Source of the DNA: Achromobacter pestifer
GTDB taxonomy: Bacteria > Pseudomonadota > Gammaproteobacteria > Burkholderiales > Burkholderiaceae_B
DNA length: 64,000 bases
Direction of reading: 5' to 3'
NCBI RefSeq assembly: GCF_013267355.1
Contig: NZ_CP053985.1
Location: 1,116,001-1,180,000, forward strand
The translations under genes and the position numbers were made by a program. Every line of letters begins with the position of its first letter. Position 1 is the first letter of the stretch. Shown here piece by piece: positions 25,681-43,185 of the stretch. The notes under the pieces were generated by a model. That model did not search any database, was not told the DNA's origin, and saw only the letters and a program-made list of their open reading frames with translations.

Positions 25681-26591
25681 TGAAACCCAGACTACCGCCG
25701 CTGACGTCCATTCGCGCCTTCGAAGCGGCGGGCCGTCAGCTGAGCTTCACCCAGGCCGCGGACGAGCTGTCCGTCACGCATGGCGCCGTCAGCCATCAGA
25801 TCAAGGCGCTGGAAGACTGGTTGGGCGTGAAGCTGTTCCGCCGCCTGGGCAAGAAAATCGAATTGACGGACCAGGGCCGGCTCTATCTGGACACCATCAG
25901 CCCGGCGCTGGACGCCATCGCCTCGGCCTCGCGCAGCCTGCGCTCGCGCGAGGTGCTGCGGGTCAATGCCCTGCCCACCTTCACCATGCGCTGGCTGTTT
26001 CCCCGGCTGGCGCGGTTCCGCGAGCAGTACCCCGAGGTGGAAGTGGAGATCTCCACCGGACTGGAGCCCTTCAGCCGCCTGCCCGCGAATCTGGACGTGG
26101 TGATCCGGCGCGAGGCCGAGCCCACGCCTGGCCTCTACAAGCGCCGCGTGCTGAACGAGAGCTTCTTTCCCGTATGTGCGCCCGGCCTGCTGCAGCGGCT
26201 GCCACTGGAACGCATCACCGACCTGTCACGCCACACCTTCCTGCACTGCCGCGCGCGGCGCAGCGCCTGGAACGACTGGCTGGCCAGCGTGCAGCACAGC
26301 CGGGTCGTGCCGGCCGAATCGCTGGAGCTCGAACACCTGTACTTCGCCTTGCAGGCCGCGCTCGACGGCCTGGGCATGACCATAGGCTATTCATCGCTGG
26401 TGGCCAGCGACATCGAGGACGGCCGGCTGCTGGCGCCGTTCGGACCGCTGACGGTGCAGTCGCCGGGCTATTTCCTCATCATCCGCGAAGAGCGCCGCCA
26501 CGACCGCTTGCTGAAGACCTTCTGCGACTGGCTGATGGGGGAAGGCGAGCGCTTCAACAAGCATATGGAGACGCTGGTGCCGGGCGGCTGA
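25680..26591 (+). CDS. LysR-family regulator (GcvA-like)
   Basis: 303-aa regulator. N-terminal HTH of the GcvA subgroup: PPLTSIRAFEAAGRQLSFTQ, AADELSVTHGAVSHQIKALEDWLG, KLFRRLGKKIELTDQG. The remaining sequence is a periplasmic-binding-fold effector domain (FTMRWLFPRLARFREQYPEV, FLHCRARRSAWNDWL). It is divergent from the CoA-transferase operon with two matching palindromes between them, so it is the likely regulator of that operon. Its 3' end overlaps the convergent E2 gene by 38 bp. Confidence 0.92.
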   Translation: MKPRLPPLTSIRAFEAAGRQLSFTQAADELSVTHGAVSHQIKALEDWLGVKLFRRLGKKIELTDQGRLYLDTISPALDAIASASRSLRSREVLRVNALPTFTMRWLFPRLARFREQYPEVEVEISTGLEPFSRLPANLDVVIRREAEPTPGLYKRRVLNESFFPVCAPGLLQRLPLERITDLSRHTFLHCRARRSAWNDWLASVQHSRVVPAESLELEHLYFALQAALDGLGMTIGYSSLVASDIEDGRLLAPFGPLTVQSPGYFLIIREERRHDRLLKTFCDWLMGEGERFNKHMETLVPGG

Positions 26592-27918
26592 AAGCCTCCA
26601 GCACGATATCCGCCACCAGCTTGCCGGCCTCCCATTGCGGCATGTGGCCGGCATCCGGCAACAGGTGCAGCGCGGTCCTGGCCGGCGCGTTCAATGCGTG
26701 GCGCCATGGGATGACGGCGTCGCGCCGGCCATGGATCAGCGTGCAGCGGCATTGCAGGCTGGCCAGGTCCGCCGCGATGCTCAGTTGCTGCACGCCGTTC
26801 CAGCCCACCTCCCGGCAGAGTTCGATCAGGGGCTCGCGCCGCGCCTGCGTGGCCTGGCGCAGGGCGTCGATGAAGTTTCCCGACGGCGTCATGCCGGAGA
26901 CCGTGAGTTTCTGCAGCTCGCGCTGCGCCGCTTCATTGGTGCCGGCATGCGTCATGCCCGTCAGAAAGCCCTGGTCGATTTCGGTGCCCAGCCCGACCGG
27001 CGCGATCAGGATCAGGCTGTCCACGGCCATGCCGGGGCGGGACGCCACCCGGGCCGCCACCGCCGCGCCAAAAGAATGGCCGATCAGGTTCACGGGGCCG
27101 AGGCACTGGGACGCCACCGTGTCGGCCACGGCATCGACGATATGCTCGAAGCGCGTGGCCTGCGAACGCGTGGCGCCATGGCAAGGCAGATCCATCGCCA
27201 GCACACGCAGTCCGGCGCGGCTGAGCGCATGCGCCAGGCTGGCCCAGGCGTCGCGGTCGCCGAACATGCCGTGGATGAGCACCGCCGTCTGGCTGTCCGG
27301 ACGGCTCCCTTCCCACACCGTGAACCGAACCTCGCCGTGGCGGGTAATCGCCCAGGCCTCGCGCTTTTCTCCTGGCGCGCCGCGGGCCTGCATGTTGTCC
27401 CGTCCGCTGGCGCTTCCCTGGCCGACATCCGCCACGGTCACGCGGCCGTTGGGCCCGGTCCCCGCAACGACATCCAGCGCGATGCCGCGCTCGGCCGCGA
27501 CGCGGCGGGCGGCGGGGGTGGCGAACTTGCGCTCTGCTGAAGGCTGCACCAGAGGATGCGCCAACGACGGCGACGCCGCCGGCGTCCGCGCGGCAGCCGG
27601 CGCGGCGGCGGCAGGCGTTGCTGCAGCGGGCTGCGCCGCCCCGCCGGCCGCACTCGCCGCCGGTGCGACCTCGCCTTCCATCCGCACTCGTGCGATCACC
27701 GTATCCGCGTTCACGATGCCGTCCACGGCGACCAGATGTTCCACCATGATCCCGTCGTCGTGCGCGGGCACCTCGATGATGGACTTGTCCGTTTCAATCT
27801 CGACCAGCACGTCGCCCGTCTTGAAGGCCTGGCCAGGCGCCACGATCCAGGCGACCAGGCGGGCAGCGTCCAGGGCCTCGCCTGTCGGCGGGACGACCAT
27901 ATCCAGCGTTCTCGTCAT
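26554..27918 (-). CDS. AcoC-like E2: lipoyl domain + E3-binding domain + alpha/beta hydrolase
   Basis: 454-aa acyltransferase-type subunit of a 2-oxoacid/acetoin dehydrogenase complex. Residues 1-80: lipoyl domain with lipoylated Lys45 in IETDKS. Residues ~85-118: Ala/Pro-rich flexible linker. Residues ~130-165: peripheral-subunit-binding domain (ATPAARRVAAERGI, GTGPNGRVTVADV). Residues ~190-450: alpha/beta hydrolase fold (LIHGMFGDRDAW, nucleophile elbow GHSFGAA, late DAGHMPQW) in place of the classical CAT domain, as in AcoC. It is the last gene of the 11-gene leftward operon. No E3 gene is present, so a housekeeping dihydrolipoamide dehydrogenase would be recruited. Confidence 0.88.
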   Translation of the reverse strand: MTRTLDMVVPPTGEALDAARLVAWIVAPGQAFKTGDVLVEIETDKSIIEVPAHDDGIMVEHLVAVDGIVNADTVIARVRMEGEVAPAASAAGGAAQPAAATPAAAAPAAARTPAASPSLAHPLVQPSAERKFATPAARRVAAERGIALDVVAGTGPNGRVTVADVGQGSASGRDNMQARGAPGEKREAWAITRHGEVRFTVWEGSRPDSQTAVLIHGMFGDRDAWASLAHALSRAGLRVLAMDLPCHGATRSQATRFEHIVDAVADTVASQCLGPVNLIGHSFGAAVAARVASRPGMAVDSLILIAPVGLGTEIDQGFLTGMTHAGTNEAAQRELQKLTVSGMTPSGNFIDALRQATQARREPLIELCREVGWNGVQQLSIAADLASLQCRCTLIHGRRDAVIPWRHALNAPARTALHLLPDAGHMPQWEAGKLVADIVLEAFSRPAPASPYAC

Positions 27919-27976
27919 GCTTGTTCCTTCGAAGATCGATGCGCGCCCCGGCCAGCGGAGTTGCGCCAGCGCGGCG

Positions 27977-28429
27977 TCAGGCCGCCGGATTCATGAACTG
28001 GATGAACTCCGTGATGGCGCCTTCAGGCTCCATCAGATAGAACACCTTGGTGCGCCCTTGCCGCATGACCCGCGGCGAGGACACGCTTTCGTAGCCGGCG
28101 CGCGAGGCCTGCTCGTACACGGCATCGACGTCCTCCACCTCGAAGGCCATGTGGCTGTATCCGAAATCGCATTGGCGGCGCGGCTGCCTGTCGCCGTCCG
28201 GCGTGTAGTACTTGAACAATTCCACCCGGTGCCCGCCATGGCGCAACATGGCCCAGCGTATGGTCGCGCCCGGCAGGCCGACCACTTCGCCCAGCGCAGG
28301 CTCGCTGCGATGATCCATCTCGCCTTCCAGCTCGAAGCCGAGAAAGCCGGTGTAGAAGTTCCGCGCGCGTTCGAAATCGTTGACGCAGACGGCCGTGTGA
28401 TGCGTGGCCAGAAGTTTGTCTTTGAGCAT
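27977..28429 (-). CDS. VOC/glyoxalase-family protein
   Basis: 150-aa vicinal-oxygen-chelate protein, started at ATG 28429 (MLKDKLLATHHTAVCVND). Two beta-alpha-beta-beta-beta units are visible. Likely metal ligands are the His of HHTAVCV, the Glu of RVELFKY, the His of YSHMAFEVED and the Glu of GAITEFIQF, the glyoxalase I/epimerase pattern. It lies between the E1 and E2 genes of a 2-oxoacid-dehydrogenase-like system, an unusual place; it might epimerise or isomerise the substrate. Specific reaction unknown. Confidence 0.85.
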   Translation of the reverse strand: MLKDKLLATHHTAVCVNDFERARNFYTGFLGFELEGEMDHRSEPALGEVVGLPGATIRWAMLRHGGHRVELFKYYTPDGDRQPRRQCDFGYSHMAFEVEDVDAVYEQASRAGYESVSSPRVMRQGRTKVFYLMEPEGAITEFIQFMNPAA

Positions 28430-28452
28430 TTTTCTCTCCAATGGCGTCCGGT

Positions 28453-30681
28453 TCAGCGCGCGCCGCCGCGGCGGCTGTCCATGGATTTCAGGGCCGTCTC
28501 CACGGCCTGCGCGTCCGCCAGCGCGGCGCGCTCCAGCACCTTGGAGACCACGGGCGAGGAATTGGCGCCCGTGACGTGCACGATCTCGTGGTCCAGCCAG
28601 TCGAACAGCCGCGACTGCGCCTCGCTTGCCACCCGCGCGCCGATCGAGGTGCCGCGCGTGGTCTGCTCCACGATCATCAGCGCCTGCGTGCGCTTGACGC
28701 CGGCCGCGATGGTGTCCCAATCGATGCCCAGCGGATCCAGCGTGCGCAGGTCTATCACCTGGGCATCGATGCCCGTGCGCTCCGCCGCCTGGCAGCAGAC
28801 CTCGACCATGACGCCGTAGGTCAGGATGGTGCAGCGCGCACCCTCGCGCGCCACCCGGGCCCGGCCGATGGGCACGATGTAATCCCAGTCCTCGGCCGGC
28901 ACCTTGTCCACCTTCTTGAACAGGTCGTTGTATTCCACCATCAGGACCGGATCGTCGCAGCGCAGCGCGGCGTTGAGCAGGCCGATGTAGTCGTAGGGAC
29001 GCGATGGCGCCAGGATGCGCCACCCGGGATACTGGGCAAACAGGCCGCTGGCGTCCATGGAATGCTGCGAGCCATAGCCGGTTCCCGCCGTGACCCGGCT
29101 GCGCACCAGCACCGGCACCGCGAATTTGCCGCCGAACATGTGGCGTACCTTGGCGATCTGGTTGAACAGCTGATCCGCCGCCACCAGCGCGAAGTCGGGG
29201 TACATGATTTCCACCACGGGCCGCATGCCGTTCAACGCCGCGCCCAGCGCCAGGCCGGTGAAGCCGTTCTCGCAGATGGGCGTGCCGATGAGGCGTTCCG
29301 GAAAATGGTCGCCTATGTCCTTGGTGGCGCCGGCCGTGCCGCCCTTCAGGCGATGCACGTCCTCGCCCAGGATGAAGATGCCGTCGTCGCGCTGCATGTT
29401 CAGCAGCATGGCGCGCGAGATCACGTCCTGGAACTTGGCGTCCGCCAGGCTCGCTGGTTTCTGCTCCTCGAGCTCGATGGCACGCTGGCCGGCCAGTTCG
29501 CCCAGGTTGCCGCGTATCCCGCTGTCCACGCTGGCCGGGTCCGGCCACAGATCGGGCCGGATGCGCTGCGCCGCCTCGTCGCCGTAGTGCTCCAGCAGCC
29601 GGTCCAGCGCGCCGTCTATCAGTTCATCGGCGCGGCGCTCCAGGAGGGCAATGCCGGCATCGTCGATCAGGCCCAGCGATTTCAGCTGCGCGGGAAACGT
29701 CGACATGGGATCGCGCGCGCCCCAGGCTTCTTCCTCGTCCTTGTCACGGTAGCGGAAGGCGCTGCCCTTCAGGGCGCCCGATTGATGCAGGTAGCGGTAC
29801 GTCTGCGCTTCCAGCAGCACCGGTCCGCCTTCACGGCGGATGATGGCGCGGGCCTCCTGCATGGCCAGGCGCGCCGCCACCACGTCCATGCCGTCGAACT
29901 CGATGGCCGGCACGCCCAGGGACAGGCCGCGTGCCGACAAGCGGGTTTCGCGGGTCTGCTCCGACACATGGGTGGACACCGCGTACAGGTTGTTTTCCAC
30001 GAAGAATATGGTGGGCGTGTTGTAGAGCGCCGCCAGGTTCATGGCCTCGTAGGCCGCCCCGCTCTGCATGGCGCCGTCGCCGAAGAAAGCCACCGACACG
30101 TGGTCGCGCCCGCGCAGCTTGTCGGCGAAGGCGTAACCCACCGCATGCGACGGGTTGCCGCCCACGATGGCGTTGGAGCCGTAGATGCCGGCCTCGGGAT
30201 AGCGCAGATGCATGGAACCGCCGCGGCCACCGCAATAGCCCGGCGTCAGGCCCAGGATCTCGGCATAAGTCCGGTAGACCACGTCGCGGTGCGAGTCCAG
30301 CGTTTCCGAGTCCAACGGCGAATAGTCCGCCGGCGTGGCGTGGTTCAGCGCCTTGGCAAGAAACTGGTGGTGCATGCGGTGGGTGCCGTTGATCTTGTCG
30401 GCCGACTCCAGCGCCGACATGGCGCCCACGGCGGCGCCGTCCTGGCCGATGCTGGAATGCGCCGGACCATGCAGGATGCCCGCCACGCTCAGCTTCAGCA
30501 GCTTCTCCTCGAAGCGCCGGATCAGTATCAACTGCTCCAGCATGCGGACCATCTCGCGCGGCGCGATGGCGCCCGCATCCGCGGCGGTGGCGGTAAGCCG
30601 CCACCAAGGCGTGTCGGTATGCAGGGCGGCGAGCCGCGAGGGTTTCGCGGCAGGCGCCGCGCCTTCATTGATGTGCTTCAT
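28453..30681 (-). CDS. Fused E1 alpha-beta of a thiamine-diphosphate 2-oxoacid/acetoin dehydrogenase
   Basis: 742-aa protein joining both E1 chains. Alpha part, residues ~45-345: RRFEEKLLKL, GPAHSSIGQDGAAVG, GYCGGRGGSMHLR, and ThDP/Mg motif GDGAMQSGAAYEAMNLAALY ending VENN. Beta part, ~410-742: DAKFQDVISRAMLLNM, GEDVHRLKGG, CENGFTGLALGAALNGMRPV, and a C-terminal transketolase domain. It decarboxylates a 2-oxo acid (or splits a ketol) and passes the acyl group to lipoyl-E2 encoded two genes downstream. Its setting among sulfonate-type dehydrogenases and transporters makes an unusual substrate likely. Confidence 0.9.
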   Translation of the reverse strand: MKHINEGAAPAAKPSRLAALHTDTPWWRLTATAADAGAIAPREMVRMLEQLILIRRFEEKLLKLSVAGILHGPAHSSIGQDGAAVGAMSALESADKINGTHRMHHQFLAKALNHATPADYSPLDSETLDSHRDVVYRTYAEILGLTPGYCGGRGGSMHLRYPEAGIYGSNAIVGGNPSHAVGYAFADKLRGRDHVSVAFFGDGAMQSGAAYEAMNLAALYNTPTIFFVENNLYAVSTHVSEQTRETRLSARGLSLGVPAIEFDGMDVVAARLAMQEARAIIRREGGPVLLEAQTYRYLHQSGALKGSAFRYRDKDEEEAWGARDPMSTFPAQLKSLGLIDDAGIALLERRADELIDGALDRLLEHYGDEAAQRIRPDLWPDPASVDSGIRGNLGELAGQRAIELEEQKPASLADAKFQDVISRAMLLNMQRDDGIFILGEDVHRLKGGTAGATKDIGDHFPERLIGTPICENGFTGLALGAALNGMRPVVEIMYPDFALVAADQLFNQIAKVRHMFGGKFAVPVLVRSRVTAGTGYGSQHSMDASGLFAQYPGWRILAPSRPYDYIGLLNAALRCDDPVLMVEYNDLFKKVDKVPAEDWDYIVPIGRARVAREGARCTILTYGVMVEVCCQAAERTGIDAQVIDLRTLDPLGIDWDTIAAGVKRTQALMIVEQTTRGTSIGARVASEAQSRLFDWLDHEIVHVTGANSSPVVSKVLERAALADAQAVETALKSMDSRRGGAR

Positions 30682-30693
30682 CTACGCTTTCCT

Positions 30694-31512
30694 TCAGTGA
30701 GCCGCGGCCAGGGCGGCGTCCAGCGGTTCTGTTTCCTGCGCGCGCAGCAGCTTCCAGATGTGCGTGCGCAGGTGCACGAATGCCTCCATGTCCATCACGT
30801 CCTCGATCCGCTCCATGCTGTCCCACTCTTCGCGCTTGCGCACGTCGGCCACGTTGATGATTTCCTTGATCTGCCCCGGGCGGCCGGTCAGCACCACCAC
30901 GCGGTCCGACAGGTACACCGCTTCTTCCACGCTGTGGGTGATGAACAGCACGGTGCGCGGATTGAGGCGGGACAGCTTGACCAGTTCTTCCTGCATGACC
31001 ACGCGGGTCTGGGCGTCCAGCGCGCCGAAGGGCTCGTCCATCAGCAGCACATCGGGATCCAGCGCGTAGCTGCGGGCGATGGCCACCCGCTGCTGCATGC
31101 CGCCGGACAGCTGGTGCGGATAGGCCTGCTCATAGCCCGACAGGCCCATCAGCTCGATGTAGCGCGCCACCGTCCGCGCTCGCGCCTCGCGCGAGACGCC
31201 CTTGCACTTCAGGCCGAAGCCGATGTTCTCGGTCACGGTCTTCCAGGGGAACAGCGCAAACTGCTGAAACACGACGGCGCGGTCCGGTCCCGGTTCCTCG
31301 ACTTCCTTGCCGCCCACCCGCACACTGCCGGCCGAGGGGAATTCCAGGCCGGCCGCCATGCGCATCAGCGTGGTCTTGCCGCAGCCGGACGGCCCGACGA
31401 TGGAAACGAATTCCCTCTCGCCCACCTCGAAACTCACGTCGTCCAGGGCCAGGAAGCTTTCCCCGCCCCGGCTGAACGTGCGTTGCACCCGCTCGAAAGT
31501 AATCTGACTCAT
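30694..31512 (-). CDS. ABC transporter ATPase, nitrate/sulfonate/taurine type (SsuB/TauB-like)
   Basis: 272-aa single ATPase module. Walker A GPSGCGKTT, Q-loop VFQQFALFPWKTV, signature LSGGMQQRVAIARSYAL, Walker B VLLMDEPFGALD, H-loop LFITHSVEEAVYLSD. These are typical of the SsuB/TauB/NrtD group. It lies between the E1 gene (12 bp) and a binding protein (36 bp). It is the only ATPase of this type in the locus, although two permease pairs and two binding proteins are encoded. Confidence 0.93.
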   Translation of the reverse strand: MSQITFERVQRTFSRGGESFLALDDVSFEVGEREFVSIVGPSGCGKTTLMRMAAGLEFPSAGSVRVGGKEVEEPGPDRAVVFQQFALFPWKTVTENIGFGLKCKGVSREARARTVARYIELMGLSGYEQAYPHQLSGGMQQRVAIARSYALDPDVLLMDEPFGALDAQTRVVMQEELVKLSRLNPRTVLFITHSVEEAVYLSDRVVVLTGRPGQIKEIINVADVRKREEWDSMERIEDVMDMEAFVHLRTHIWKLLRAQETEPLDAALAAAH

Positions 31513-31548
31513 GCTTGCGTTCCTTTGTTGAGAGCCGCGGCCGCCGGC

Positions 31549-32631
31549 TTACTTGGCGACATCGGCGACGAAGGCCCTGAGCTTGGGATCGTCCTGGATC
31601 ATCTGCAGATACTTGCCCGTGACCATGGTCTTGGGATCGGGAATCTTCTTGACCACGCCCACGGACACCATGAATTCCCCCACGCTGTTCCACCAGCCCA
31701 CGATCTCCGAGGTGCCGCCCGGGCCCGGCGCGAACAGCTTGGTCTGTTCCGCCAGGTCAAAGGCCGGGCGGTCGCGCAGCTCCTGCGCCAGGTACTTGTC
31801 GGGGAACTTCACGCCCACGCTGCCGAAGAAGGCTTTCAGATACGCCTTGGCCTCTTCGGGATGCGCGCGCTGCCAGGCCACCGCGCGCAGATAGACCGCC
31901 AGGAAGCGGGCAACCTTGTCGGGATGCTTCTTGGCGAAGGCCGGCGTCGTGAACAGGTAGCTGTGGATAGGCATCTTCAGCTCGGCGCCGGTGCAGATCA
32001 CCTTTGCGCCCATGGCCTCTTCCAGGATGTAGGTGTTGGGCGCCCACACGGAGGAAATGTCGTACTTGCCGCTCATCACCGCGGCATTGATGTCGGGCGG
32101 AGACAGGTTCACGAAGCGGTAGTCCTCGGGCTTGAGGCCGAACTTCTTCGACAGGCATTCCGCGGCGCCCCACTGGCCCGTGGAGTTGCTGGTGACGGGA
32201 ATGGTCTTGCCCTTGAGCAACGCCGGGTTCTTGAGATACTCGTCCGCCCGGTCCTTGGTGGCCATCAGCGTGATGATGGCGGCCTCGCCGTCGGCGATGC
32301 CTATGGTTTGCAGGCCGTACTTCGACGCGCCCAGCAGCGAGGGAATGTTGCCCGCCCCGCCCACGTCCCATGACCCGGACGCGCCCGCCGCGATTTCGAC
32401 CGCCCCGGAAGCGAAGGTCGAGATCTCCGGCTTCAGGCCCACCTCCTTCCACCAGCCCTTCTCGCTGGCGATGTACCACTCCAGCGCCCACCGCTGCGGC
32501 TGCTGCCCGATGCGGATGGTGAACAGTTCCTCGCCCGCCGGCGCGGCCTGGGCCGCCGCCTGTCCGGGTCCCCCCAGCCAGCACCCGATCACGAGCGCTG
32601 CCAAAGCCTTGAGGCCTTTGTAATGTTTCAT
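31549..32631 (-). CDS. ABC substrate-binding protein, NMT1/SsuA type
   Basis: 360-aa periplasmic receptor, started at ATG 32631, with a Sec signal peptide (MKHYKGLKALAALVIGCWL ... AAAQ). SsuA-family features: PQRWALEWYIASEKGWWKEV, GAVEIAAGASGSWDVGGAG, SNSTGQWGAAECL, FLAVYLRAVAWQRAHPEEA. It resembles the second receptor at 37537, with the same sequence of motifs, so the two may take related substrates or stereoisomers. Family members bind sulfonates, taurine, nitrate or aromatic acids. Confidence 0.9.
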   Translation of the reverse strand: MKHYKGLKALAALVIGCWLGGPGQAAAQAAPAGEELFTIRIGQQPQRWALEWYIASEKGWWKEVGLKPEISTFASGAVEIAAGASGSWDVGGAGNIPSLLGASKYGLQTIGIADGEAAIITLMATKDRADEYLKNPALLKGKTIPVTSNSTGQWGAAECLSKKFGLKPEDYRFVNLSPPDINAAVMSGKYDISSVWAPNTYILEEAMGAKVICTGAELKMPIHSYLFTTPAFAKKHPDKVARFLAVYLRAVAWQRAHPEEAKAYLKAFFGSVGVKFPDKYLAQELRDRPAFDLAEQTKLFAPGPGGTSEIVGWWNSVGEFMVSVGVVKKIPDPKTMVTGKYLQMIQDDPKLRAFVADVAK

Positions 32632-32699
32632 CTGTCTCTCTCCAATATGGAATGCCGCTGCCTGCACTGCCTGCCTGTACTCCCTCCTTTTTTCCTGGA

Positions 32700-33518
32700 T
32701 CAGCGCGACCAGTCGCGCTGCACCCGTCGCTGCAAGGCGCGCATGCCGTAATCGATGCCCGCGCCTATCAATCCGATGGTGATCATTCCGCTGATCACGA
32801 TGGCGGGTTCCAGATTGCTGCCGCCCTGCACGATCATGTAGCCCAGCCCGGTCGAGCCCACGATCAGCTCCGCGCCGATCAGCGACTGCCAGCCGAACCC
32901 CGCGCCGACCCGGATACCGGCGACGATGTGCGCCAATGCGGCCGGCAGCAAGATTTCCGTCAGCGTCGCCCAGCGCCCCGCCCCCAGCATCTGGCCCGCC
33001 TCGATCAGGGCGCGGTCGATCTGCCTGGCGCCGCGGTAGGCGTTCAGCACGCAGGGCGCGAAGGCGCCCGCGAATATCACCAGCGTGGGCGACAGGAAGC
33101 CGGTGCCGAACCAGAAGATCGCGAACGGCACCCAGGCGATGGGCGGAATGAAGCGGAAGGCCTCGAACACCGGCGACACCGCCCAATCCAGCGCCTTGAA
33201 GCGCCCCATGAACAAGCCCAGCGGCACGCCCAGCAGGACCGCGATGGAGAAGCTGATCAGGAATTTCTCCAGGCTGGCCAGCAGATGCATCTGCAGCACC
33301 GAGCCCGCATAGGGTTCGCGCGTGTGCTCGGCCATGCTGCGCAGCACCGTCAGCGGTCCCGGCAGAAAGGCCGGCGACACCAGGCCCAGCCCGGACAGCA
33401 GCGCCCAACCGCCGAACAGGGTGGCGATGCCCAGCGCCGGCATCAGCCAGCGTTCCAGCACGCGGCGCGACACAAGGGAGCGCGCGCGGACCGGGCCTGT
33501 GCGATTCAGGCTTTCCAT
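32700..33518 (-). CDS. ABC permease, SsuC/TauC type
   Basis: 272-aa inner-membrane protein started at ATG 33518 (MESLNRTGPVRARSL), overlapping the preceding permease by 13 bp. About six TM helices; the EAA loop is near IEAGQMLGAGRWATLTEILLPAAL. The segment RFIPPIAWVPFAIFWFGTG is typical of the family. Its closest relative within the window is the permease at 41597, with which it shares REPYAGS/SEPYSGA and FGWQSLIGAELIV/IGWQSLVGAELIV. Confidence 0.92.
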   Translation of the reverse strand: MESLNRTGPVRARSLVSRRVLERWLMPALGIATLFGGWALLSGLGLVSPAFLPGPLTVLRSMAEHTREPYAGSVLQMHLLASLEKFLISFSIAVLLGVPLGLFMGRFKALDWAVSPVFEAFRFIPPIAWVPFAIFWFGTGFLSPTLVIFAGAFAPCVLNAYRGARQIDRALIEAGQMLGAGRWATLTEILLPAALAHIVAGIRVGAGFGWQSLIGAELIVGSTGLGYMIVQGGSNLEPAIVISGMITIGLIGAGIDYGMRALQRRVQRDWSR

Positions 33519-34396: not shown

Positions 34397-34397
34397 G

Positions 34398-35387: not shown

Positions 35388-35411
35388 GGCGGGACTCCAC
35401 GGAGATGCCGG

Positions 35412-36185
35412 TCAGCGGGCCGAAAAGCCGCCGTCTATGAACAGGGTCTGCCCAGTGATGTAGGCCGATGCCTCGCTCGCCAGGAACACGGCCGCGCCAT
35501 GCAGGTCCTCCAGCCGGCCGTTGCGGCCGATCATGGTGCTGGCCGCCAAGGCCTGCACGCGGACCGGATCGCTCATCACGGGCGCGGTCAGCGGCGTCTC
35601 GAAGAAGCCCGGCGCGATCGCGTTGCAGGTAATCCCGTGACGCGACCAGTACTCGGCGATGGCGCGGGTCAGCTGCATCAGGCCGCCCTTGGACGCGCCA
35701 TAGGGTGCGCTGTCAGGAAAGGCGCGCACGCACTGCAACGAGGTGATGTTGATGATGCGGCCCCAGCCGCGTTCGCGCATGGCCGGCGCCAGCGCGCGGG
35801 TCAGCAGGAACGGCGCGGTCAGGTTGATCGCCAGCGAGCGGTCCCAGTCCTCGTCCGCCGTGTCCTCGAAGGGCTTGCGCACGTTGATGCCCGAGGCGTT
35901 GACCAGAATGTCGGGTGCGCCGAAAGGTTGGGCCGCGCGGGCGGCAAAGCCGCGCAACGCATCGCGGTCAGCCAGATCGCACGGTAAGGCGCGCGCGCGC
36001 AGGCCTTGCGCTTCGAATTCGCCTGCGGCGCAAGCCAGCTCTTGCTCGCGCCGCGCCACCAGCACCACGCTGGCGCCGGCCCGCGCCAGCGCCAGGCCGA
36101 TGGCTTTGCCGATGCCGGAACTGCCGCCGCTTACCAGCGCGACGCGGCCGTCGAGGTCGAACAGGCGGGACATGTCGTTCTGCAT
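35412..36185 (-). CDS. Short-chain dehydrogenase/reductase (HpsO-like candidate)
   Basis: 257-aa classical SDR, started at ATG 36185, just 7 bp after the HisD-like stop. Cofactor motif SGGSSGIGKAIG, NASG in place of NNAG, catalytic Ser in INITSLQ, YxxxK in YGASKGG, and a C-terminal IDGGFSAR. The NAD(P)-dependent oxidation or reduction of a hydroxyl or ketone is expected. Together with the Zn dehydrogenase it could epimerise a secondary alcohol through the ketone. Confidence 0.88.
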   Translation of the reverse strand: MQNDMSRLFDLDGRVALVSGGSSGIGKAIGLALARAGASVVLVARREQELACAAGEFEAQGLRARALPCDLADRDALRGFAARAAQPFGAPDILVNASGINVRKPFEDTADEDWDRSLAINLTAPFLLTRALAPAMRERGWGRIINITSLQCVRAFPDSAPYGASKGGLMQLTRAIAEYWSRHGITCNAIAPGFFETPLTAPVMSDPVRVQALAASTMIGRNGRLEDLHGAAVFLASEASAYITGQTLFIDGGFSAR

Positions 36186-36192
36186 GATGGCT

Positions 36193-37536
<1,344 letters not shown>

Positions 37537-38589
37537 TCAGTTGGCCTTGTTGGCGAAGGTCTTGAGCGCCGGGGTCTGGTCGACGCGCTTCATGTAGTCG
37601 TCCGTGATGTAGGCCTTGGGGTCCGGCACCTCGGTAAGCGTGCCCACGCTCTTCAGGTAGCCGGACAGGGCCTCGTAGGCGTTGTCCAGCGTGGACTTGC
37701 CGCCGGTGCGCGACATCAGTTTGAGCTGTTCGTCGAGCGTGAAGATCGGCCGTTCCAGCTCCTGTCCCAGGTAGCCGTCGTTGAGCTTGATGCCGTTGGC
37801 CTGGAACAGCTTGCGCAGGTAGCCCATGGCTTCCGCCTTGTTGTTCTTCTCGAAGCTGATGGCCCGCAGGTACACCGCCAGGAACTTGGCGACCGCATCC
37901 GGATTCTGCTGGGCGAATTCGCCGCGCGCCACCAGCGCGCCGGGAATCATCACGCCCGCGTCCTTGCCGCTGCACACGACTTCCGCGCCGATCTGCTCGT
38001 TGAGCGTGTAGAAATTGGGCGCCCAGGTGCCAGCCAGCATGCCGTTGCCGCCGGTGAAGGCGGACACCAGCTGCGCGGGGGCCAGCGTCACCACGCTGAC
38101 ATCGCTGCGCTGCATGCCCCATTTCTTCAGGCAGGCCATGGTGGCGTATTCGCCCGTCGAGTTCGGACTGAGAAGGATCTGCTTGCCCTTCACTTCCTTG
38201 GCCGCATTGCTGCGCACGGCCGCTGCGTTTTCCTTGCGCGCCATCACGCCGTTGGCGGTCGATTCGTCATTGGTGACGCCGAGCGTCAGGATGCCGTAGC
38301 GCTGCGCGCCCAGGACCGCAGGCGGCGAACCCGTGCCGCCCACGTCCCAGGACTTGGACGCGGCGCCGGCGATCTGCTGCGCGCCCGCCGGATACACCAC
38401 GAACTCCGGTTTCAGGCCGGCTTCCGCCCACCAGTTCTTTTCCGTGGCGATGTAGATCGGCAGCGCCCAATAGGCGATCTGGTAGCTGACCTTGATGGGA
38501 GTCGGCGCCTGGGCCGACACGGACGGGCTCAACAGCAAGGCGCCCAGCGGCGCCAGGCACAGACCCAGGATGCGGGGGATTCTCGACAT
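37537..38589 (-). CDS. ABC substrate-binding protein, NMT1/SsuA type
   Basis: 350-aa periplasmic receptor, started at ATG 38589 (MSRIPRILGLCLAPLGALLL ... VSAQ signal peptide). Motifs parallel the 31549 receptor: YQIAYWALPIYIATEKNWW, GAQQIAGAASKSWDVGGTGS, SPNSTGEYATMACLKKWG, FLAVYLRAISFEKNNKAEA. It is first in the 11-gene leftward operon, with a LacI operator 96 bp upstream. The duplicate receptor suggests two related ligands. Confidence 0.9.
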   Translation of the reverse strand: MSRIPRILGLCLAPLGALLLSPSVSAQAPTPIKVSYQIAYWALPIYIATEKNWWAEAGLKPEFVVYPAGAQQIAGAASKSWDVGGTGSPPAVLGAQRYGILTLGVTNDESTANGVMARKENAAAVRSNAAKEVKGKQILLSPNSTGEYATMACLKKWGMQRSDVSVVTLAPAQLVSAFTGGNGMLAGTWAPNFYTLNEQIGAEVVCSGKDAGVMIPGALVARGEFAQQNPDAVAKFLAVYLRAISFEKNNKAEAMGYLRKLFQANGIKLNDGYLGQELERPIFTLDEQLKLMSRTGGKSTLDNAYEALSGYLKSVGTLTEVPDPKAYITDDYMKRVDQTPALKTFANKAN

Positions 38590-38684
38590 GCTTAGTCTCC
38601 GATAGTGGATTCCGGTCTGCATGCGCGAGCTGCCGCGACATTCCCCGGATAGCAGGCCCGGATCTGCGTCTGGGCTCGGTTTTT

Positions 38685-38698
38685 TGAAAGCGCATACA
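38685..38698. promoter_or_regulatory. LacI-type operator O2: TGAAAGCGCATACA
   Basis: Matches the perfect palindrome at 38794 in 12 of 14 positions, including the central CG step typical of LacI/PurR operators. It lies 96 bp upstream of the leftward operon start, and its centre is 109 bp from the other operator. Confidence 0.65.
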
Positions 38699-38793
38699 AA
38701 GAATAAGCGCGCAAGAATCCCATTCAACCCCGAGAAAACCCTAGAGATAGACCACGGCGTTTCAATAACTGTATATTCACATCATCGAATTTC

Positions 38794-38807
38794 TGAAAGC
38801 GCTTTCA
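38794..38807. promoter_or_regulatory. LacI-type operator O1: perfect TGAAAGCGCTTTCA
   Basis: A 14-bp perfect palindrome with central CG, 4 bp before the lacI-family start codon. Typical of LacI/GalR-family binding sites, and placed for autoregulation. Confidence 0.85.
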
Positions 38808-38811
38808 AAAA

Positions 38812-39864
38812 ATGAAGCGACAGTCCACAGCCCTGTCCGGGGACACTCTGAAGTCCATCGCCGCCGCCGGCGGCATCTCGTCGGCAACCTTGTCCCGGGT
38901 GTTGAACCACCCTGAAAAAGTACGGCCCGACCTGCGCGCGCGCGCCATGGCCCTGCTGGCCGAGGCAGGCTACGTGCCGCACGGCGCAGCCCGTTCGCTC
39001 GCTTCCCGCAAGACCCGGACCATGGGCGCCATCATCCCCACGGTGGACAGCGCGTTGTTCGCCAAGCTGGTCGACGGCATGCAGCAGGCGATCCACGAAC
39101 ACGGTTATCAGCTGCTGCTGGCCAGCACCAACTACAGCCCTGCGCGCGAAGCGGGCGAAGTGCGCGCGCTGATCGAACGCGGCGTGGACGCCATGATGCT
39201 GGTCGGCCGCAGCCGCGACCCGGAGCTCTACGAACTGCTGCACTCCAAGGGCATCCCTTTCGTCACCACCTGCCATTACGACGCCGCCGATCCCTGGCCC
39301 ATGGTGGGCTGGGACAACGCCGCGGCCGCGCAGCGCATCGCCGACTACCTGCTGGACATCGGCCACCGCCGCCTGGGCGTGATCGCTGGCATCTCCAAGG
39401 ACAACGACCGCGCCGCCGACCGCGTGGCCGGCTTCACGCGCGCCCTGACGCGCCGCGGCATCGAACTGCCGCCGCAGTACGTCATCGAAAAACCCTACAC
39501 CGTGCCCGAAGCCCGCCGCGCCATGGCCACCCTGCTGCGTCTGCCCGAACCGCCTACCGCGGTCATGTGCGGCAACGACATCCTGGCCTATGGCGCGCTG
39601 CAGGAATGCCTATGGCAGAACCTGCGCGTGCCCGAGCAGATTTCGATCACAGGCTTCGACAACATCGAAATGGCCGCCCATTGCCGGCCCGGCATCACCA
39701 CCCTGAACGTGCCGGCCTTCGAGCTGGGCCAGCGCGCGGCCCACATTCTGCTGGCCGCCGACGCCGACACGCCGCCCGAGAACGTCTGCATCGAACTGGA
39801 ATTGATCGTCCGCGACACCACCGCGCCGCCGCGCAGCAGCACCAGTGCGCGGCTAGCCAGCTGA
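38812..39864 (+). CDS. LacI-family repressor of the putative sulfonate locus
   Basis: 350-aa regulator. N-terminal HTH: TLKSIAAAGGISSATLSRVLNHPEKV and hinge RSLASRKTRTMGAIIP. The effector domain is a periplasmic-binding fold (FVTTCHYDAADPWPMVGWDN, PTAVMCGNDILAYGALQECL, ISITGFDNIEMA), close to GntR/KdgR-like members. It is divergent from the leftward operon and leads the rightward one (20 bp before the next gene). Two operators flank the divergent promoters, so it probably represses both arms through a DNA loop. Confidence 0.93.
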   Translation: MKRQSTALSGDTLKSIAAAGGISSATLSRVLNHPEKVRPDLRARAMALLAEAGYVPHGAARSLASRKTRTMGAIIPTVDSALFAKLVDGMQQAIHEHGYQLLLASTNYSPAREAGEVRALIERGVDAMMLVGRSRDPELYELLHSKGIPFVTTCHYDAADPWPMVGWDNAAAAQRIADYLLDIGHRRLGVIAGISKDNDRAADRVAGFTRALTRRGIELPPQYVIEKPYTVPEARRAMATLLRLPEPPTAVMCGNDILAYGALQECLWQNLRVPEQISITGFDNIEMAAHCRPGITTLNVPAFELGQRAAHILLAADADTPPENVCIELELIVRDTTAPPRSSTSARLAS

Positions 39865-39883
39865 CCACACCGGAGCAAGCTCC

Positions 39884-40807
39884 ATGGAACACATCGAATC
39901 ACCTCGCATCGCATTCCTGGGCCTGGGCGTCATGGGGAGCGCGATGCTGCGCAACCTGGCCGCGCAGGGGTACGCAGTATCAGGTTACGACGTCGTTCCC
40001 GCGGCCATGGAGCGCTTGGCCGACACCGGCTTCCGGCGGGCCGCCACGCCGCTGGAAGCTGCCCGCGGCTGCGACGTGGCGATCACCATGCTGCCCACCT
40101 CCGCCCACGTCCGCGACGCCCTGTTCGGCGCCGATGGCGCGGCGGCAGGCTTGAATCCGGGCGCCCTGGTCATCGAAATGAGCACGGGCGACGCGGTCGA
40201 GACGGACCGCATCGCCGCCGATCTCGCGGCCCTGGGCCTGCGTTGCATGGACGCCCCCGTGGGGCGCACGCCGCGCGAGGCGGCGCAGGGCAAGGCCTTG
40301 ATCATGGCCGGCGGCGCGCAGGCCGACTTCGACCAGGCCGCCCCCATCTTCGCCGCCATGGCCAACGAGATCGTGCATGTGGGCCCTTTCGGTTCGGGCA
40401 TCCGGCTCAAGTTGGTCAACAACTACATGTCCATGGTCGGCATGGTGCTGACGGGCGAAGCGCTGATGTTCGCCGCCAAGCTCGGGTTGGACCGCGCCAC
40501 CGTCGTCAAGGTACTGTCCAACACCACCGCGGGGCGCGGGCAGCTCCTGACCAATTTCCCCGGCAAGGTGCTGGCGGGCGACATCAGCCCCGACTTCCCC
40601 ATGCGCATGGGCTACAAGGACATCAACCTGGCCATGAACCTGGCCGCCTCGGTGGGCGCGCCGCTGGGCCTGGGCGGCTACGCCCGCGAGATGTTCGCGC
40701 TGGCCAAGTCCTGGGGACGGCAGGAGCAGGACTGCACGGCCATGCTGCTGCTGCTCGAGGACGTGGCCCACCTGGATCGCCAGGCCGCGGGGTCCGGCCA
40801 TGAGTGA
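39884..40807 (+). CDS. YihU-like 3-sulfolactaldehyde reductase / beta-hydroxyacid dehydrogenase
   Basis: 307-aa member of the 3-hydroxyisobutyrate-dehydrogenase family. Rossmann motif GLGVMGSA (~13-20) and catalytic Lys176 in GIRLKLVNN. The resemblance to E. coli YihU is specific: PVGRT (Arg128), then KLVNNYMS (Asn179, Asn180, Ser183) and a GKVLSGDLSP-like GKVLAGDISPDF. These fall at a constant +5 offset from the YihU residues I recall as binding the sulfonate (R123, K171, N174, N175, S178). Likely reaction: dihydroxypropanesulfonate/sulfolactaldehyde interconversion. Its stop overlaps the next permease start. Confidence 0.85.
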   Translation: MEHIESPRIAFLGLGVMGSAMLRNLAAQGYAVSGYDVVPAAMERLADTGFRRAATPLEAARGCDVAITMLPTSAHVRDALFGADGAAAGLNPGALVIEMSTGDAVETDRIAADLAALGLRCMDAPVGRTPREAAQGKALIMAGGAQADFDQAAPIFAAMANEIVHVGPFGSGIRLKLVNNYMSMVGMVLTGEALMFAAKLGLDRATVVKVLSNTTAGRGQLLTNFPGKVLAGDISPDFPMRMGYKDINLAMNLAASVGAPLGLGGYAREMFALAKSWGRQEQDCTAMLLLLEDVAHLDRQAAGSGHE

Positions 40808-41609
40808 GCACATCGCAACCCTGCCCGCGCGGCGGCCGCGCGCATCGCGCCGCCGCATCACCGTGGGCGTGGCCGCCGTCGCCATCGCTTTCGCCGCCTG
40901 GTGGATCGTGTCGGCGCTGGGCCTGGTCAATGGCGCGCGCTTTCCCACCCCGCTCACCACCTGGCAGGCCGCGGTGCAGCTCTCGCGCGATTCCGGCTAT
41001 GCCGGCGGCACGCTGTTCCAACACATCGGCCACAGCCTGCGCCTGGTATTCCTGGGATTTCTGGTCGCCATCGGCACCGGCGTGCCGCTGGGCCTGCTGA
41101 TGGGATTCAGCAAGCGCATCGACGCCCTGGTCGGGCCCGTATTCTCGCTGTTGCGCCCGATCCCGCCGCTGGCCTGGATTCCGCTGGCCATCCTGTGGCT
41201 GGGCCTGGGGGACCCGGCGAAGATCTTCCTGATCTGGGTATCGTCGTTCACGCCCGCCGTCATCAACACCTACGCAGGCGTGCGCAACATCGACCCCACG
41301 CTGATCGAGGCCGCGCGCGTGCACGGCGCGGGCCATCCGGTCCGCATGCTGCGCGAGGTCCTGATACCCGGCTCCATGCCCATGATCTTCACCGGCCTGC
41401 GGCTGTCGCTGCAGACCGCGTGGATGACGCTGGTGGCGGCGGAACTCATCGGCGCCTTCATCGGCCTGGGCAAGGTGCTGGACACCGCGGCGCTGGACAT
41501 CCGGCCCGGCATGATCCTGTACGCCATGGTCTGGGTGGGCCTGCTGGGCGCGGTGATGACGCGCGGACTGGAATGGATCGAAAAGAGGGCCTTGCCATGG
41601 CTACGCTGA
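40800..41609 (+). CDS. ABC permease, SsuC/TauC type
   Basis: 269-aa inner-membrane protein whose ATG lies within the end of the YihU-like gene (8-bp overlap). Motifs: LLRPIPPLAWIPLAILWLGLGD, FTPAVINTYAGVRNIDPTLIEAARVHGAG, SLQTAWMTLVAAELIGAFIGLG. Clearly paralogous to the permease at 33506. It forms a pair with the next gene. No ATPase or binding protein is encoded in this rightward operon. Confidence 0.92.
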   Translation: MSEHIATLPARRPRASRRRITVGVAAVAIAFAAWWIVSALGLVNGARFPTPLTTWQAAVQLSRDSGYAGGTLFQHIGHSLRLVFLGFLVAIGTGVPLGLLMGFSKRIDALVGPVFSLLRPIPPLAWIPLAILWLGLGDPAKIFLIWVSSFTPAVINTYAGVRNIDPTLIEAARVHGAGHPVRMLREVLIPGSMPMIFTGLRLSLQTAWMTLVAAELIGAFIGLGKVLDTAALDIRPGMILYAMVWVGLLGAVMTRGLEWIEKRALPWLR

Positions 41610-42391
41610 CACGCGCCTCGGGCGACCCGCCCGCCTTCACCTTCGGCTTGTCCTGCCTGGGGCTGGCCGGCTTCTTCCTGGCCTGGCATCTGCTGAGCGT
41701 GGCAGGAGTCTTCCCGCCCAACTACCTGCCCGGCCCGCTGACCGTGCTGCAAACCATCGCGCAGTACAGCAGCGAACCCTATTCCGGCGCCACGCTCTGG
41801 ACGCACCTGGGCGCCAGCCTCTACCGCTTCGCCTGCGGCTTCCTGCTGGCCGCGGCGGTAGGCATACCGCTGGGCCTGCTGATGGGCTGGTACCGCTGGC
41901 TGGACGACGTGGTCAGTCCGTTCTTCGATGCGCTGCGCTTCGTGGCGCCCATCGCCTGGGTGCCGTTCGCCGGCCTGTGGTTCGGCACCGGCATCGGCGG
42001 GCCCACCCTGATCATTTTCGCCGGCGCCTTTCCGCCCTGCCTGATCAGCGCCTACCGCGGCGCCAAGTTCGTCGACACGCGGCTCTTGGAAGCCTCGCGC
42101 ACGCTGGGCGCCAGCGGGCCGCGCATCGTGGCCGAAGTGCTGCTGCCGGCCTCGCTGCCGTCCATCCTGGCCGGCCTGCGCGTCAGCGCCGGCATCGGCT
42201 GGCAATCGCTGGTGGGCGCGGAGCTGATCGTGGTGGGCAACGGCATCGGCTACATGATGGTGCAGGGGCAGCTCAACGTCGCCACCAATATCGTCATGGC
42301 CGGCATGATCGCCATCGGCATCGTCGGCATCTGCATCGACGTTGCGCTGCGCGTGTTTGAACAGCGCCTGAAGGCGCGCTGGGGACGCTGA
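41597..42391 (+). CDS. ABC permease, SsuC/TauC type
   Basis: 264-aa inner-membrane protein, started at ATG 41597, overlapping the preceding gene by 13 bp exactly as the pair at 32700/33506 does. Motifs: LRFVAPIAWVPFAGLWFGTG, FPPCLISAYRGAKFVDTRLLEASRTLGASG, IGWQSLVGAELIVVGNG. The identical 13-bp overlap suggests the two permease pairs arose by block duplication. It would need the ATPase encoded at 30694. Confidence 0.92.
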   Translation: MATLTRASGDPPAFTFGLSCLGLAGFFLAWHLLSVAGVFPPNYLPGPLTVLQTIAQYSSEPYSGATLWTHLGASLYRFACGFLLAAAVGIPLGLLMGWYRWLDDVVSPFFDALRFVAPIAWVPFAGLWFGTGIGGPTLIIFAGAFPPCLISAYRGAKFVDTRLLEASRTLGASGPRIVAEVLLPASLPSILAGLRVSAGIGWQSLVGAELIVVGNGIGYMMVQGQLNVATNIVMAGMIAIGIVGICIDVALRVFEQRLKARWGR

Positions 42392-43185
42392 TGAACCACG
42401 CAACACCGGACTCAACCCTGTCGGTCATCGTCACGGGCGGCGCCAGCGGCATCGGCGCGGCGGTATGCCGGCGGGTGATCGAGGCAGGCGGCTACGCCGC
42501 GATCCTGGACCTCAACCAGGAAGCCGCGCACACGCTGGCGCGGGAACTGGGTCCGCGCGCCGTGGCCGCCCCGGGCGATGTGCTGGACGAGGCCGGACTG
42601 CGGGCCACGCAGGAACGGCTTGCCGCCCTCTTGCCCGCGGCCACCGGACTGGTGAACTGCGCCGGCATCGCCCAGGTTCCCACCGCCATCGAAGACTATC
42701 CGGTGGAGGCCTGGGCTCGGGTGGTGGATTCCCATCTGAAAGGCACCTACACCGCCTGCCGCGTGTTCGGCAGCGCGATGGCCGAACGCGGACGCGGGGC
42801 GGTCGTCAATGTAGCGTCCGTGCTGTCGTTCCGTCCCGGCCCGGTGCTGGCCTACGGTCCGGCCAAGGCCGCCGTGGTGAACCTGACCGAAGCCCTCGCG
42901 GTGCACTGGGCGCGCCGCGGCTTGCGCGTCAACGCCATCGCGCCCGGCTGGACCGACACGCCCTTTCTCAGGCCCAAGGAGCGGCAGGGGGAGCGGGACA
43001 TGACGCCGATCCTGAACGCCACGCCGCTGGGCCGCCTGATGCAGCCGCGCGAGATCGCGGAAGTCGTGTTCTTCCTGCTCTCGCCCGCGGCTGCGGTTAT
43101 CACCGGCGCCACCATCCCTTGCGACGGCGGCGTCATCGCCGGATCAGGATGGGCGCCTTACGGGGGCTTTCCGCAAACTGCCTGA
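42391..43185 (+). CDS. Short-chain dehydrogenase/reductase
   Basis: 264-aa classical SDR coupled to the permease by a TGATG overlap. Cofactor motif TGGASGIGAAVC, NCAG, catalytic Ser (NVASVLSF), YxxxK in YGPAKAA and PGWTDTPF. It is the last gene of the rightward arm of the LacI divergon. A second alcohol/ketone oxidoreductase for the same pathway is likely; the substrate is unassigned. Confidence 0.88.
   Translation: MNHATPDSTLSVIVTGGASGIGAAVCRRVIEAGGYAAILDLNQEAAHTLARELGPRAVAAPGDVLDEAGLRATQERLAALLPAATGLVNCAGIAQVPTAIEDYPVEAWARVVDSHLKGTYTACRVFGSAMAERGRGAVVNVASVLSFRPGPVLAYGPAKAAVVNLTEALAVHWARRGLRVNAIAPGWTDTPFLRPKERQGERDMTPILNATPLGRLMQPREIAEVVFFLLSPAAAVITGATIPCDGGVIAGSGWAPYGGFPQTA

Follow-up and report, generated by a model that had tools for sequence, protein, structure and literature searches.

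A predicted 2,3-dihydroxypropane-1-sulfonate locus of Achromobacter pestifer with ABC transporter genes and an adjoining E1/VOC/E2 module

2,3-Dihydroxypropane-1-sulfonate (DHPS), a common sulfur compound from plants and algae, is one of the chief organosulfur compounds passed between phototrophs and bacteria. Here we describe a putative DHPS locus at positions 26554-43185 of a 64,000-nucleotide stretch of Achromobacter pestifer DNA (hereafter the window; G000:C2:1116001-1180000, in a genome of 7.18 Mb and 2 contigs). Judged from its sequence, the core of the locus is very probably of the hps type and would import and oxidise DHPS. Most of the locus appears to represent a known kind of DHPS pathway with an ordinary end; its unusual part is a module encoding a thiamine diphosphate (ThDP)-dependent dehydrogenase (E1), a glyoxalase-like protein of the VOC family and a lipoyl protein (E2).

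The best described counterpart is the hpsRNOUPsuyAB operon of Cupriavidus pinatubonensis (accessible text of PMC11382572; strain HN-2, NZ_CP080769.1; L066 among our comparison loci, which carry L numbers). It has in common with the window a LacI regulator with the same operator, HpsN (72% identical), HpsO (55%), HpsP (59%) and SuyAB in the genome. Uptake by the major facilitator HpsU and the position of suyAB inside the operon are found in C. pinatubonensis only, whereas the window has ATP-binding cassette (ABC) uptake genes, a YihU-like enzyme and E1/VOC/E2, with suyAB elsewhere. ABC-type hps loci, such as those of Curvibacter delicatus (L087) and Rhizobacter (L095), share with the window LacI, two permeases, an ATPase, an SsuA-like receptor, HpsN, HpsO and HpsP; unlike the window, they carry suyAB, slcC and comC-like genes within the stretch, and no YihU gene or E1 module there. 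The loci L026 and L027 combine LacI, YihU, permeases, ATPase, receptor, HpsN, HpsO and HpsP, in the receptor-HpsN-HpsO-HpsP order of the window, but have a split transketolase between LacI and YihU and no E1/VOC/E2 in the stretch. The acetoin dehydrogenase complex has the AcoA/AcoB/AcoC layout. Our module resembles it in its ThDP-dependent E1 and in an E2 with lipoyl, E3-binding and alpha/beta-hydrolase domains, and differs by the fusion of E1 alpha and beta, the lack of E3 in the operon, the VOC gene between E1 and E2 and an E2 score below that set for AcoC. The E1-VOC-E2-E3 modules of the same genome (L104) and of Caballeronia (L155) have in common with the window a fused E1 (50-51% identical), a VOC gene and an upstream gene for a short-chain dehydrogenase/reductase (SDR), but encode the usual 2-oxoacid acyltransferase E2 and their own E3, with no hps genes in the stretch.

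Gene content and predicted DHPS dehydrogenases

The gene list and coordinates of the preliminary description, made from the letters of the window without database searches, were borne out by open reading frames and profile scans. Eleven leftward genes (receptor SBP2, HisD-like protein, SDR, zinc alcohol dehydrogenase, two permeases, receptor SBP1, ATPase, fused E1, VOC protein and lipoyl E2) stand opposite a rightward set led by the LacI gene (LacI, YihU-like protein, two permeases, second SDR). The named genes are all present, and the VOC gene at 27977-28429 had gone unnamed; the proposed E1/E2 complex is likewise there, but its E1 is one fused alpha/beta protein and its E2 carries an alpha/beta-hydrolase domain, not the usual acyltransferase domain. 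Neighbouring leftward genes overlap by up to 13 bp or lie up to 68 bp apart, and gene spacing suggests one transcript per side; a promoter and terminator scan of the locus gave a signal at chance level. All 16 genes had profile matches far beyond chance (E values of 1e-130 for HisD, 2e-54 for E1_dh, 6e-41 for the SsuA type, 6e-85 for the YihU model and 3e-21 to 2e-27 for the permeases), and purifying selection was detected in 11 of the 11 genes tested (dN/dS 0.025-0.18 against L022, highest in E2). The features are as follows.

26554..27918, minus strand: E2, AcoC-like, with lipoyl, E3-binding and alpha/beta-hydrolase domains (NF011457 275.6 bits, cut-off 307)
27977..28429, minus strand: VOC (glyoxalase-like) protein, possibly a metal-dependent isomerase or epimerase (PF00903)
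28453..30681, minus strand: E1, fused alpha/beta ThDP-dependent dehydrogenase (profiles, solved relatives)
30694..31512, minus strand: ABC ATPase of SsuB/TauB type, sole ATPase of the locus (profiles)
31549..32631, minus strand: ABC receptor SBP1, NMT1/SsuA-like (TIGR01728 140.6 bits, cut-off 163.5)
32700..33518, minus strand: ABC permease 1b (PF00528; 53% identical to permease 2b)
33506..34396, minus strand: ABC permease 1a (PF00528; 51% identical to permease 2a)
34398..35387, minus strand: HpsP-type zinc alcohol dehydrogenase (PDB 8wwd, 328 bits)
35412..36185, minus strand: HpsO-type SDR (PDB 8wwf, 291 bits)
36193..37506, minus strand: HpsN, predicted R-DHPS 3-dehydrogenase (8v35 score, motif, tree)
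37537..38589, minus strand: ABC receptor SBP2, NMT1/SsuA-like (profiles)
38685..38698, no strand: second LacI operator-like site, TGAAAGCGCATACA (pattern scan)
38794..38807, no strand: LacI operator-like palindrome, TGAAAGCGCTTTCA (only exact copy genome-wide)
38812..39864, plus strand: LacI-family regulator, HpsR-like (profile; 42% identical to the C. pinatubonensis LacI beside hpsN)
39884..40807, plus strand: predicted YihU-like sulfolactaldehyde reductase / DHPS dehydrogenase (PDB 6sm7, 231 bits)
40800..41609, plus strand: ABC permease 2a (PF00528)
41597..42391, plus strand: ABC permease 2b (PF00528)
42391..43185, plus strand: second SDR (profiles; present in L020 and L023, not in L021, L022, L024 or L025)

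Among solved structures, the HisD-like protein scored 718 bits against 8v35, 505 against 8wwe (R-DHPS dehydrogenase) and 246 against the best histidinol dehydrogenase; 8v35 is listed as a sulfopropanediol 3-dehydrogenase and is taken to be the C. pinatubonensis enzyme. In the accessible text of PMC11382572, HpsN is characterized by a GRY(A/S)H motif, with His126 in the C. pinatubonensis protein (CpHpsN), and by zinc- and substrate-site residues. All 14 of the 14 motif, zinc-site and substrate-site positions checked against that text are conserved in the candidate, which carries GRYAH along with the zinc, substrate and catalytic residues Ser226, Gln248, His251, Glu318, His319, Asp352, Lys353, His359 and His411 (CpHpsN numbers; its own are higher by one). 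Histidine at the motif position, the absence of which was taken as the mark of HisD, is thus present in the window protein. A phylogeny against HpsN and HisD, which the preliminary description had put forward as a check of its HpsN assignment, agrees with that assignment: the candidate and 26 other GRYxH proteins are set apart from the HisD of the genome and from its second HisD-like protein (support 78/98), in a tree of 23 of the 80 HpsN loci, picked by hand, with the window, 3 plasmid records and the 2 paralogues.

These HpsN loci are the best 80 of 538 relatives, and counts per 80 therefore describe the nearest relatives only, which is also why the motif, found in 80 of 80, was expected in them. 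They span up to 10 kb per side (6 kb on both sides in 48 of the 80); their genes were called by a home-made codon score, some being missed or cut, and were named by eye where no profile or BLAST search applied. The best named match of the HisD-like gene was a draft of Achromobacter xylosoxidans (99%), in a search that may omit the source genome itself. The genome has its own HisD, a separate protein within the his gene run and without the HpsN motif. The second HisD-like protein (G000:C2:6707492) was rejected as another HpsN, being 44% identical and having GKFPL instead of GRYxH, which suggests another substrate; next to it and a LacI gene lies a sulfatase-like gene that scored below the curated thresholds (L140:7083-12007, within G000:C2:6698001-6718000). 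Three metagenome bins titled Bordetella parapertussis, an unchecked label, encode HpsN proteins 75-79% identical to that of the window (L027, L046, L047).

Genes of the hpsO and hpsP type adjoin hpsN. The zinc alcohol dehydrogenase was closest to 8wwd (328 bits, next 128), an entry titled simply zinc-containing alcohol dehydrogenase that, from its place next to 8wwe and 8wwf, probably represents HpsP. The SDR scored 291 bits against 8wwf, listed as HpsO, 287 against 9pvq and 270 against gluconate 5-dehydrogenase. These best solved relatives, together with the identities to the C. pinatubonensis proteins of L066, agree with the HpsO and HpsP roles assigned earlier to the two genes. Among solved structures, the YihU-like protein came closest to 6sm7, a 3-sulfolactaldehyde reductase (231 bits; the next gave 148), with which it shares VGRT in place of VSGT/VSGS at the substrate loop; it may, with less support from its sequence, be a second DHPS/sulfolactaldehyde oxidoreductase. 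HpsO and HpsP are termed DHPS-2-oxidoreductases in the accessible text of PMC11382572, and that of PMC11131964 reports that HpsO/HpsP of R. pomeroyi yield sulfolactaldehyde.

Uptake, regulation and end of the pathway

The window encodes two permease pairs and two receptors with one ATPase. An ATPase at least 60% identical occurs in 43 of the 80 HpsN loci, and ABC genes are therefore common beside hpsNOP; a relative of SBP2 (at least 45%) was also found in 43, LacI (at least 38%) in 49, SuyB (at least 70%) in 15 and Xsc (at least 60%) in 3. Hence, the novelty attributed in the preliminary description to the combination of hps genes with ABC uptake and an E1/E2 complex was overstated as regards the ABC part, while the association with E1/E2 is real. 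No description of ABC uptake of DHPS was found in the literature searched, as far as its texts were accessible, subscription papers lying mostly outside the coverage. The second ABC set (31549-34396) is present in L020-L023 and missing from L024, L025 and L074. In L026 (13201-16084), genes of a TRAP transporter directly follow HpsP, in a locus already carrying an ABC transporter.

The palindrome TGAAAGCGCTTTCA lies between the divergent operons and ends 4 bp ahead of the LacI start codon, and TGAAAGCGCATACA is situated 109 bp from it, also between the operons. The exact palindrome, present in one copy in the genome, was found again before the hps operon of C. pinatubonensis, where the LacI gene beside hpsN is 42% identical to that of the window. 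Within 2 mismatches the operator precedes the LacI gene in 42 of the 48 HpsN loci tested (49 less L075, which has runs of N), Achromobacter L020-L024 included; random stretches had it in 3 of 2296 cases, and the reversed pattern was found in 0 of 48 loci. Genome-wide the pattern occurs at 9 places, 2 of them in the locus; the reversed-pattern control also gave 9, and the 7 places outside the locus are therefore at chance level. The recurrence of the operator before the LacI genes of HpsN loci supports an HpsR-like regulator with a DHPS-type inducer. There is good support, from the two operator-like sites and this recurrence, for an HpsR-like LacI that would control both divergent operons, as had been proposed for a single LacI regulator.

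The preliminary description had considered the end of the pathway missing or new, which is wrong for this genome: the genome search that it had named as a check revealed a suyAB operon 0.94 Mb from the locus and xsc elsewhere. The suyAB operon (G000:C2:2091866-2096542) lies behind a divergent GntR-type gene and encodes SuyA (93 aa), SuyB (391 aa), a TctC-type receptor, an SlcC-like 2-hydroxyacid dehydrogenase and a ComC-like dehydrogenase, the SlcC and ComC names being based on similarity and neighbourhood. SuyA shares 78% and SuyB 84% identity with the products of the two genes that follow hpsP in L066, which the HN-2 record annotates as UxaA family and the published operon, in the accessible text of PMC11382572, names suyAB; SuyA itself had no Pfam or NCBIfam match. 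According to the same text, sulfolyases are not always adjacent to hpsNOP. SuyB was found in 31 of the 43 genomes of the genus, including all 11 with HpsN. In an Achromobacter transcriptome, as far as the text of PMC13193623 is accessible, a sulfolactate sulfo-lyase subunit was up-regulated, with DHPS not involved. The gene for Xsc (937 bits, cut-off 676) lies at 6.67 Mb, accompanied by a gene of the phosphate acetyltransferase type and next to ABC genes of the oligopeptide type. The ComDE beta-subunit model reached at best 65 bits genome-wide (cut-off 221.5), the alpha subunit being outside that search.

In the proposed pathway, SsuABC-type ABC proteins would import the sulfonate under control of the HpsR-like LacI on both operons, HpsO and HpsP would interconvert or oxidise both DHPS enantiomers, and HpsN would oxidise R-DHPS to R-sulfolactate. 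SuyAB, whose operon also includes SlcC/ComC-like genes and lacks the LacI operator, would cleave sulfolactate to pyruvate and sulfite. The DHPS-type substrate proposed earlier is supported by the HpsN site residues, the solved relatives of HpsN, HpsO and HpsP, and the shared operator.

Several observations weigh against this pathway. The NCBIfam hisD model TIGR00069 is also passed by the HpsN candidate (429.7 bits, cut-off 243.8); here it covers the whole superfamily and therefore cannot tell HpsN from HisD. HpsO is only slightly closer to 8wwf than to 9pvq, and because the three scores are close its assignment leans on the neighbouring genes. The YihU-like protein reached 285 bits against the curated 348 of NF012005, still its best-scoring family, both receptors stayed below the 163.5 bits of TIGR01728 for SsuA/TauA receptors (SBP1 140.6, SBP2 102.6), and the ComC model gave 208 bits against a cut-off of 500. 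SuyB is also present in 20 of 32 genomes without HpsN and is therefore not tied to this locus (chance of its presence in all 11 about 0.015, descent ignored). Control of suyAB or xsc by the LacI protein was rejected, no site within 2 mismatches being present at either, and those genes therefore seem otherwise controlled.

Two further gene groups were observed. At L101:1576-11656, xsc and the phosphate acetyltransferase-type gene have as neighbours genes for a family-5 solute receptor and for an amidohydrolase; as a guess, this group may perhaps serve a taurine conjugate. Within the window, a single 736-aa open frame (22105-24315, minus strand) combines an acyl-CoA dehydrogenase with a zinc alcohol dehydrogenase.

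Occurrence and possible chemistry of the E1/VOC/E2 module

In E2, the lipoyl Lys45 and Ser282/Asp400/His425 are invariant in 7 sequences, and we infer functional roles for them; H11, E70, H93 and E141 of the VOC protein, invariant in 8 sequences, may be metal ligands. The domain layout of E2 is shared by the E2 of L074 and of L152 (the E2 proteins of L104, L152, L155 and L074 were typed by Pfam, several others of the E1-tree set being untyped). Comparison of 8 with 12 E1 sequences gave 23 clade-specific columns, with changes near conserved motifs that name no substrate.

HpsN at least 91% identical is present in 11 of the 43 genomes of the genus, and E1 at least 91% identical in the same 11, the window's genome included. 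Outside the genus, E1 reached at best 51% in 399 genomes of the order and 54% in 398 of the phylum, and in 369 of the class there was no match at E 1e-180 except in the window's own genome; these samples include that genome, and nearly throughout only the top two candidates were scored. Among the 80 loci, the module stands beside HpsNOP in five Achromobacter loci (L020-L024), L025 and L074, the last two found through the HpsN scan and not the E1 searches; it forms one run with the hps genes in L020-L025, and the gene order of L074 is different. A YihU relative (at least 50%) occurs in 10 of the 80 loci, of which 7 carry the module, 2 a split transketolase and 1 (L069) neither. The two-gene transketolase lies between LacI and YihU (L026:5732-7506, L027:5701-7535) in metagenome-assembled genomes without E1 in the stretch. 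Neither enzyme was found next to hps genes in the 70 loci without a YihU relative, many of which are short. In L074, YihU, LacI, permease, ATPase and receptor are 68-79% identical to those of the window and HpsN groups with another lineage, so that module and YihU side apparently move as a pair. A distant transketolase relative lies close to the far edge of the L096 stretch.

The second module of the genome (L104; G000:C2:2005001-2025000), of E1-VOC-E2-E3 type, is accompanied by SDRs, an AroE-like protein and Liv-type ABC genes, and similar clusters occur in relatives and on plasmids. In the E1 tree, which omits the annotated E1 of L153 (missed or cut in gene calling), the E1 proteins of L152, L157 and L165, all outside hps loci, form a separate branch beside the hps-linked ones. 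The combination of hps genes with E1/VOC/E2 was not found described in the accessible part of the DHPS literature searched, which included PMC9594981, PMC11382572, PMC11131964, PMC13193623, PMC12421959, PMC13372026 and PMC12890257, with subscription papers mostly outside the coverage.

We tentatively read E1/VOC/E2 as an acetoin-dehydrogenase-like complex that might cleave an alpha-hydroxy-carbonyl C3-sulfonate to an acyl-CoA; the VOC protein would act on the substrate as an isomerase or epimerase. Candidate substrates of E1 would be 3-hydroxy-2-oxopropane-1-sulfonate or sulfolactaldehyde, formed by HpsO, HpsP or YihU; either product discussed for HpsO and HpsP is an alpha-hydroxy-carbonyl sulfonate and therefore a conceivable E1 substrate. 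L104 and five loci closely related to it (L141-L144 and L146) have an SDR gene directly before E1, as do 3 of the 6 plasmid records inspected, two of these with a succinate-semialdehyde-type dehydrogenase. This layout is as expected for diol oxidation followed by alpha-hydroxyketone cleavage, and supports the E1 chemistry. Other results tell against the acetoin-dehydrogenase-like reading. The remaining 3 plasmid records (L152, L156, L157) have no SDR before E1, L152 and L157 belonging to the branch beside the hps-linked E1s, and the E2 falls short of the curated AcoC score NF011457 (275.6 against 307 bits). L074 joins the other hps-linked E1s with a support of only 79/86, other ThDP enzymes occur in 7 of the 70 YihU-free loci (3 close Xsc, 4 remote Xsc relatives), and the co-occurrence counts partly follow descent and are not independent.

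It is unlikely that E1/VOC/E2 is unrelated to sulfonates, acting on another substrate and merely co-located and co-inherited with the hps genes in one island. Such a view would fit the wide distribution of fused E1 proteins 48-54% identical, around which the stretches inspected have no HpsN relative, and the paralogous module within the same genome; it is at odds with the presence of E1 and HpsN in the same 11 of 43 genomes and with the single run of module and hps genes in L020-L025, the two being associated again, in another order, in L074. Furthermore, the nearest module-free loci carry another ThDP enzyme, and E1 and VOC have dN/dS values near the HpsN value, the constraint on E2 being weaker.

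Quite unlikely, too, is a larger or different sulfonate (e.g., a C4-C6 sulfosugar fragment) that would be cut by the ThDP enzyme to sulfolactaldehyde and passed on to YihU and HpsN. The transketolase adjoins YihU in L026 and L027, and L074 pairs window-like YihU, LacI and ABC genes with an HpsN of another lineage, as would suit such a substrate, but 0 of the 16 genes match sugar isomerase, aldolase, kinase or glycosidase families, and the operator is common to the C. pinatubonensis DHPS locus.

There is only a slim chance that E1/E2 is a dedicated pyruvate dehydrogenase for pyruvate released by SuyAB. The top-scoring families and solved relatives of E1 are indeed pyruvate dehydrogenase subunits; however, the listed NCBIfam pyruvate dehydrogenase models were all below cut-off (best 254 against 454 bits), E2 has no 2-oxoacid acyltransferase domain, and the VOC protein and the transketolase of the sister loci would be left unexplained.

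In Xsc, sulfite is eliminated from the ThDP enamine, and pyruvate dehydrogenase releases halide from fluoropyruvate. By analogy, and with an equally slender probability, E1/VOC/E2 might be a ThDP-dependent desulfonating system acting on a C3-sulfonate carbonyl (sulfopyruvate or 3-hydroxy-2-oxopropane-1-sulfonate): C-C cleavage would give an enamine with a beta-sulfonate, which would lose sulfite in the manner of Xsc before the acetyl group passed via the lipoyl arm to CoA. One complex would then perform three steps, those of ComDE, Xsc and Pta, and in L026 and L027 the split transketolase would solve the same step in another way. The lack of a match at ComDE level, by the beta-subunit model, leaves room for desulfonation by the module, and the genome's own SuyAB makes it unneeded.

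Finally, degradation of a plain sugar acid or other non-sulfonate diol by relatives of changed specificity, for which the broad SDR and alcohol dehydrogenase families and the YihU score below cut-off might speak, is very improbable in view of the HpsN sulfonate-site residues, the DHPS-type best solved relatives, the shared operator and the presence of SuyB (at least 70%) in 15 of the 80 HpsN loci.

Taken as a predicted DHPS locus, the genes described here would extend DHPS catabolism to several Achromobacter species and link HpsN loci widely with ABC uptake and with a defined operator; the adjoining E1/VOC/E2 module points to an undescribed ThDP-dependent branch.

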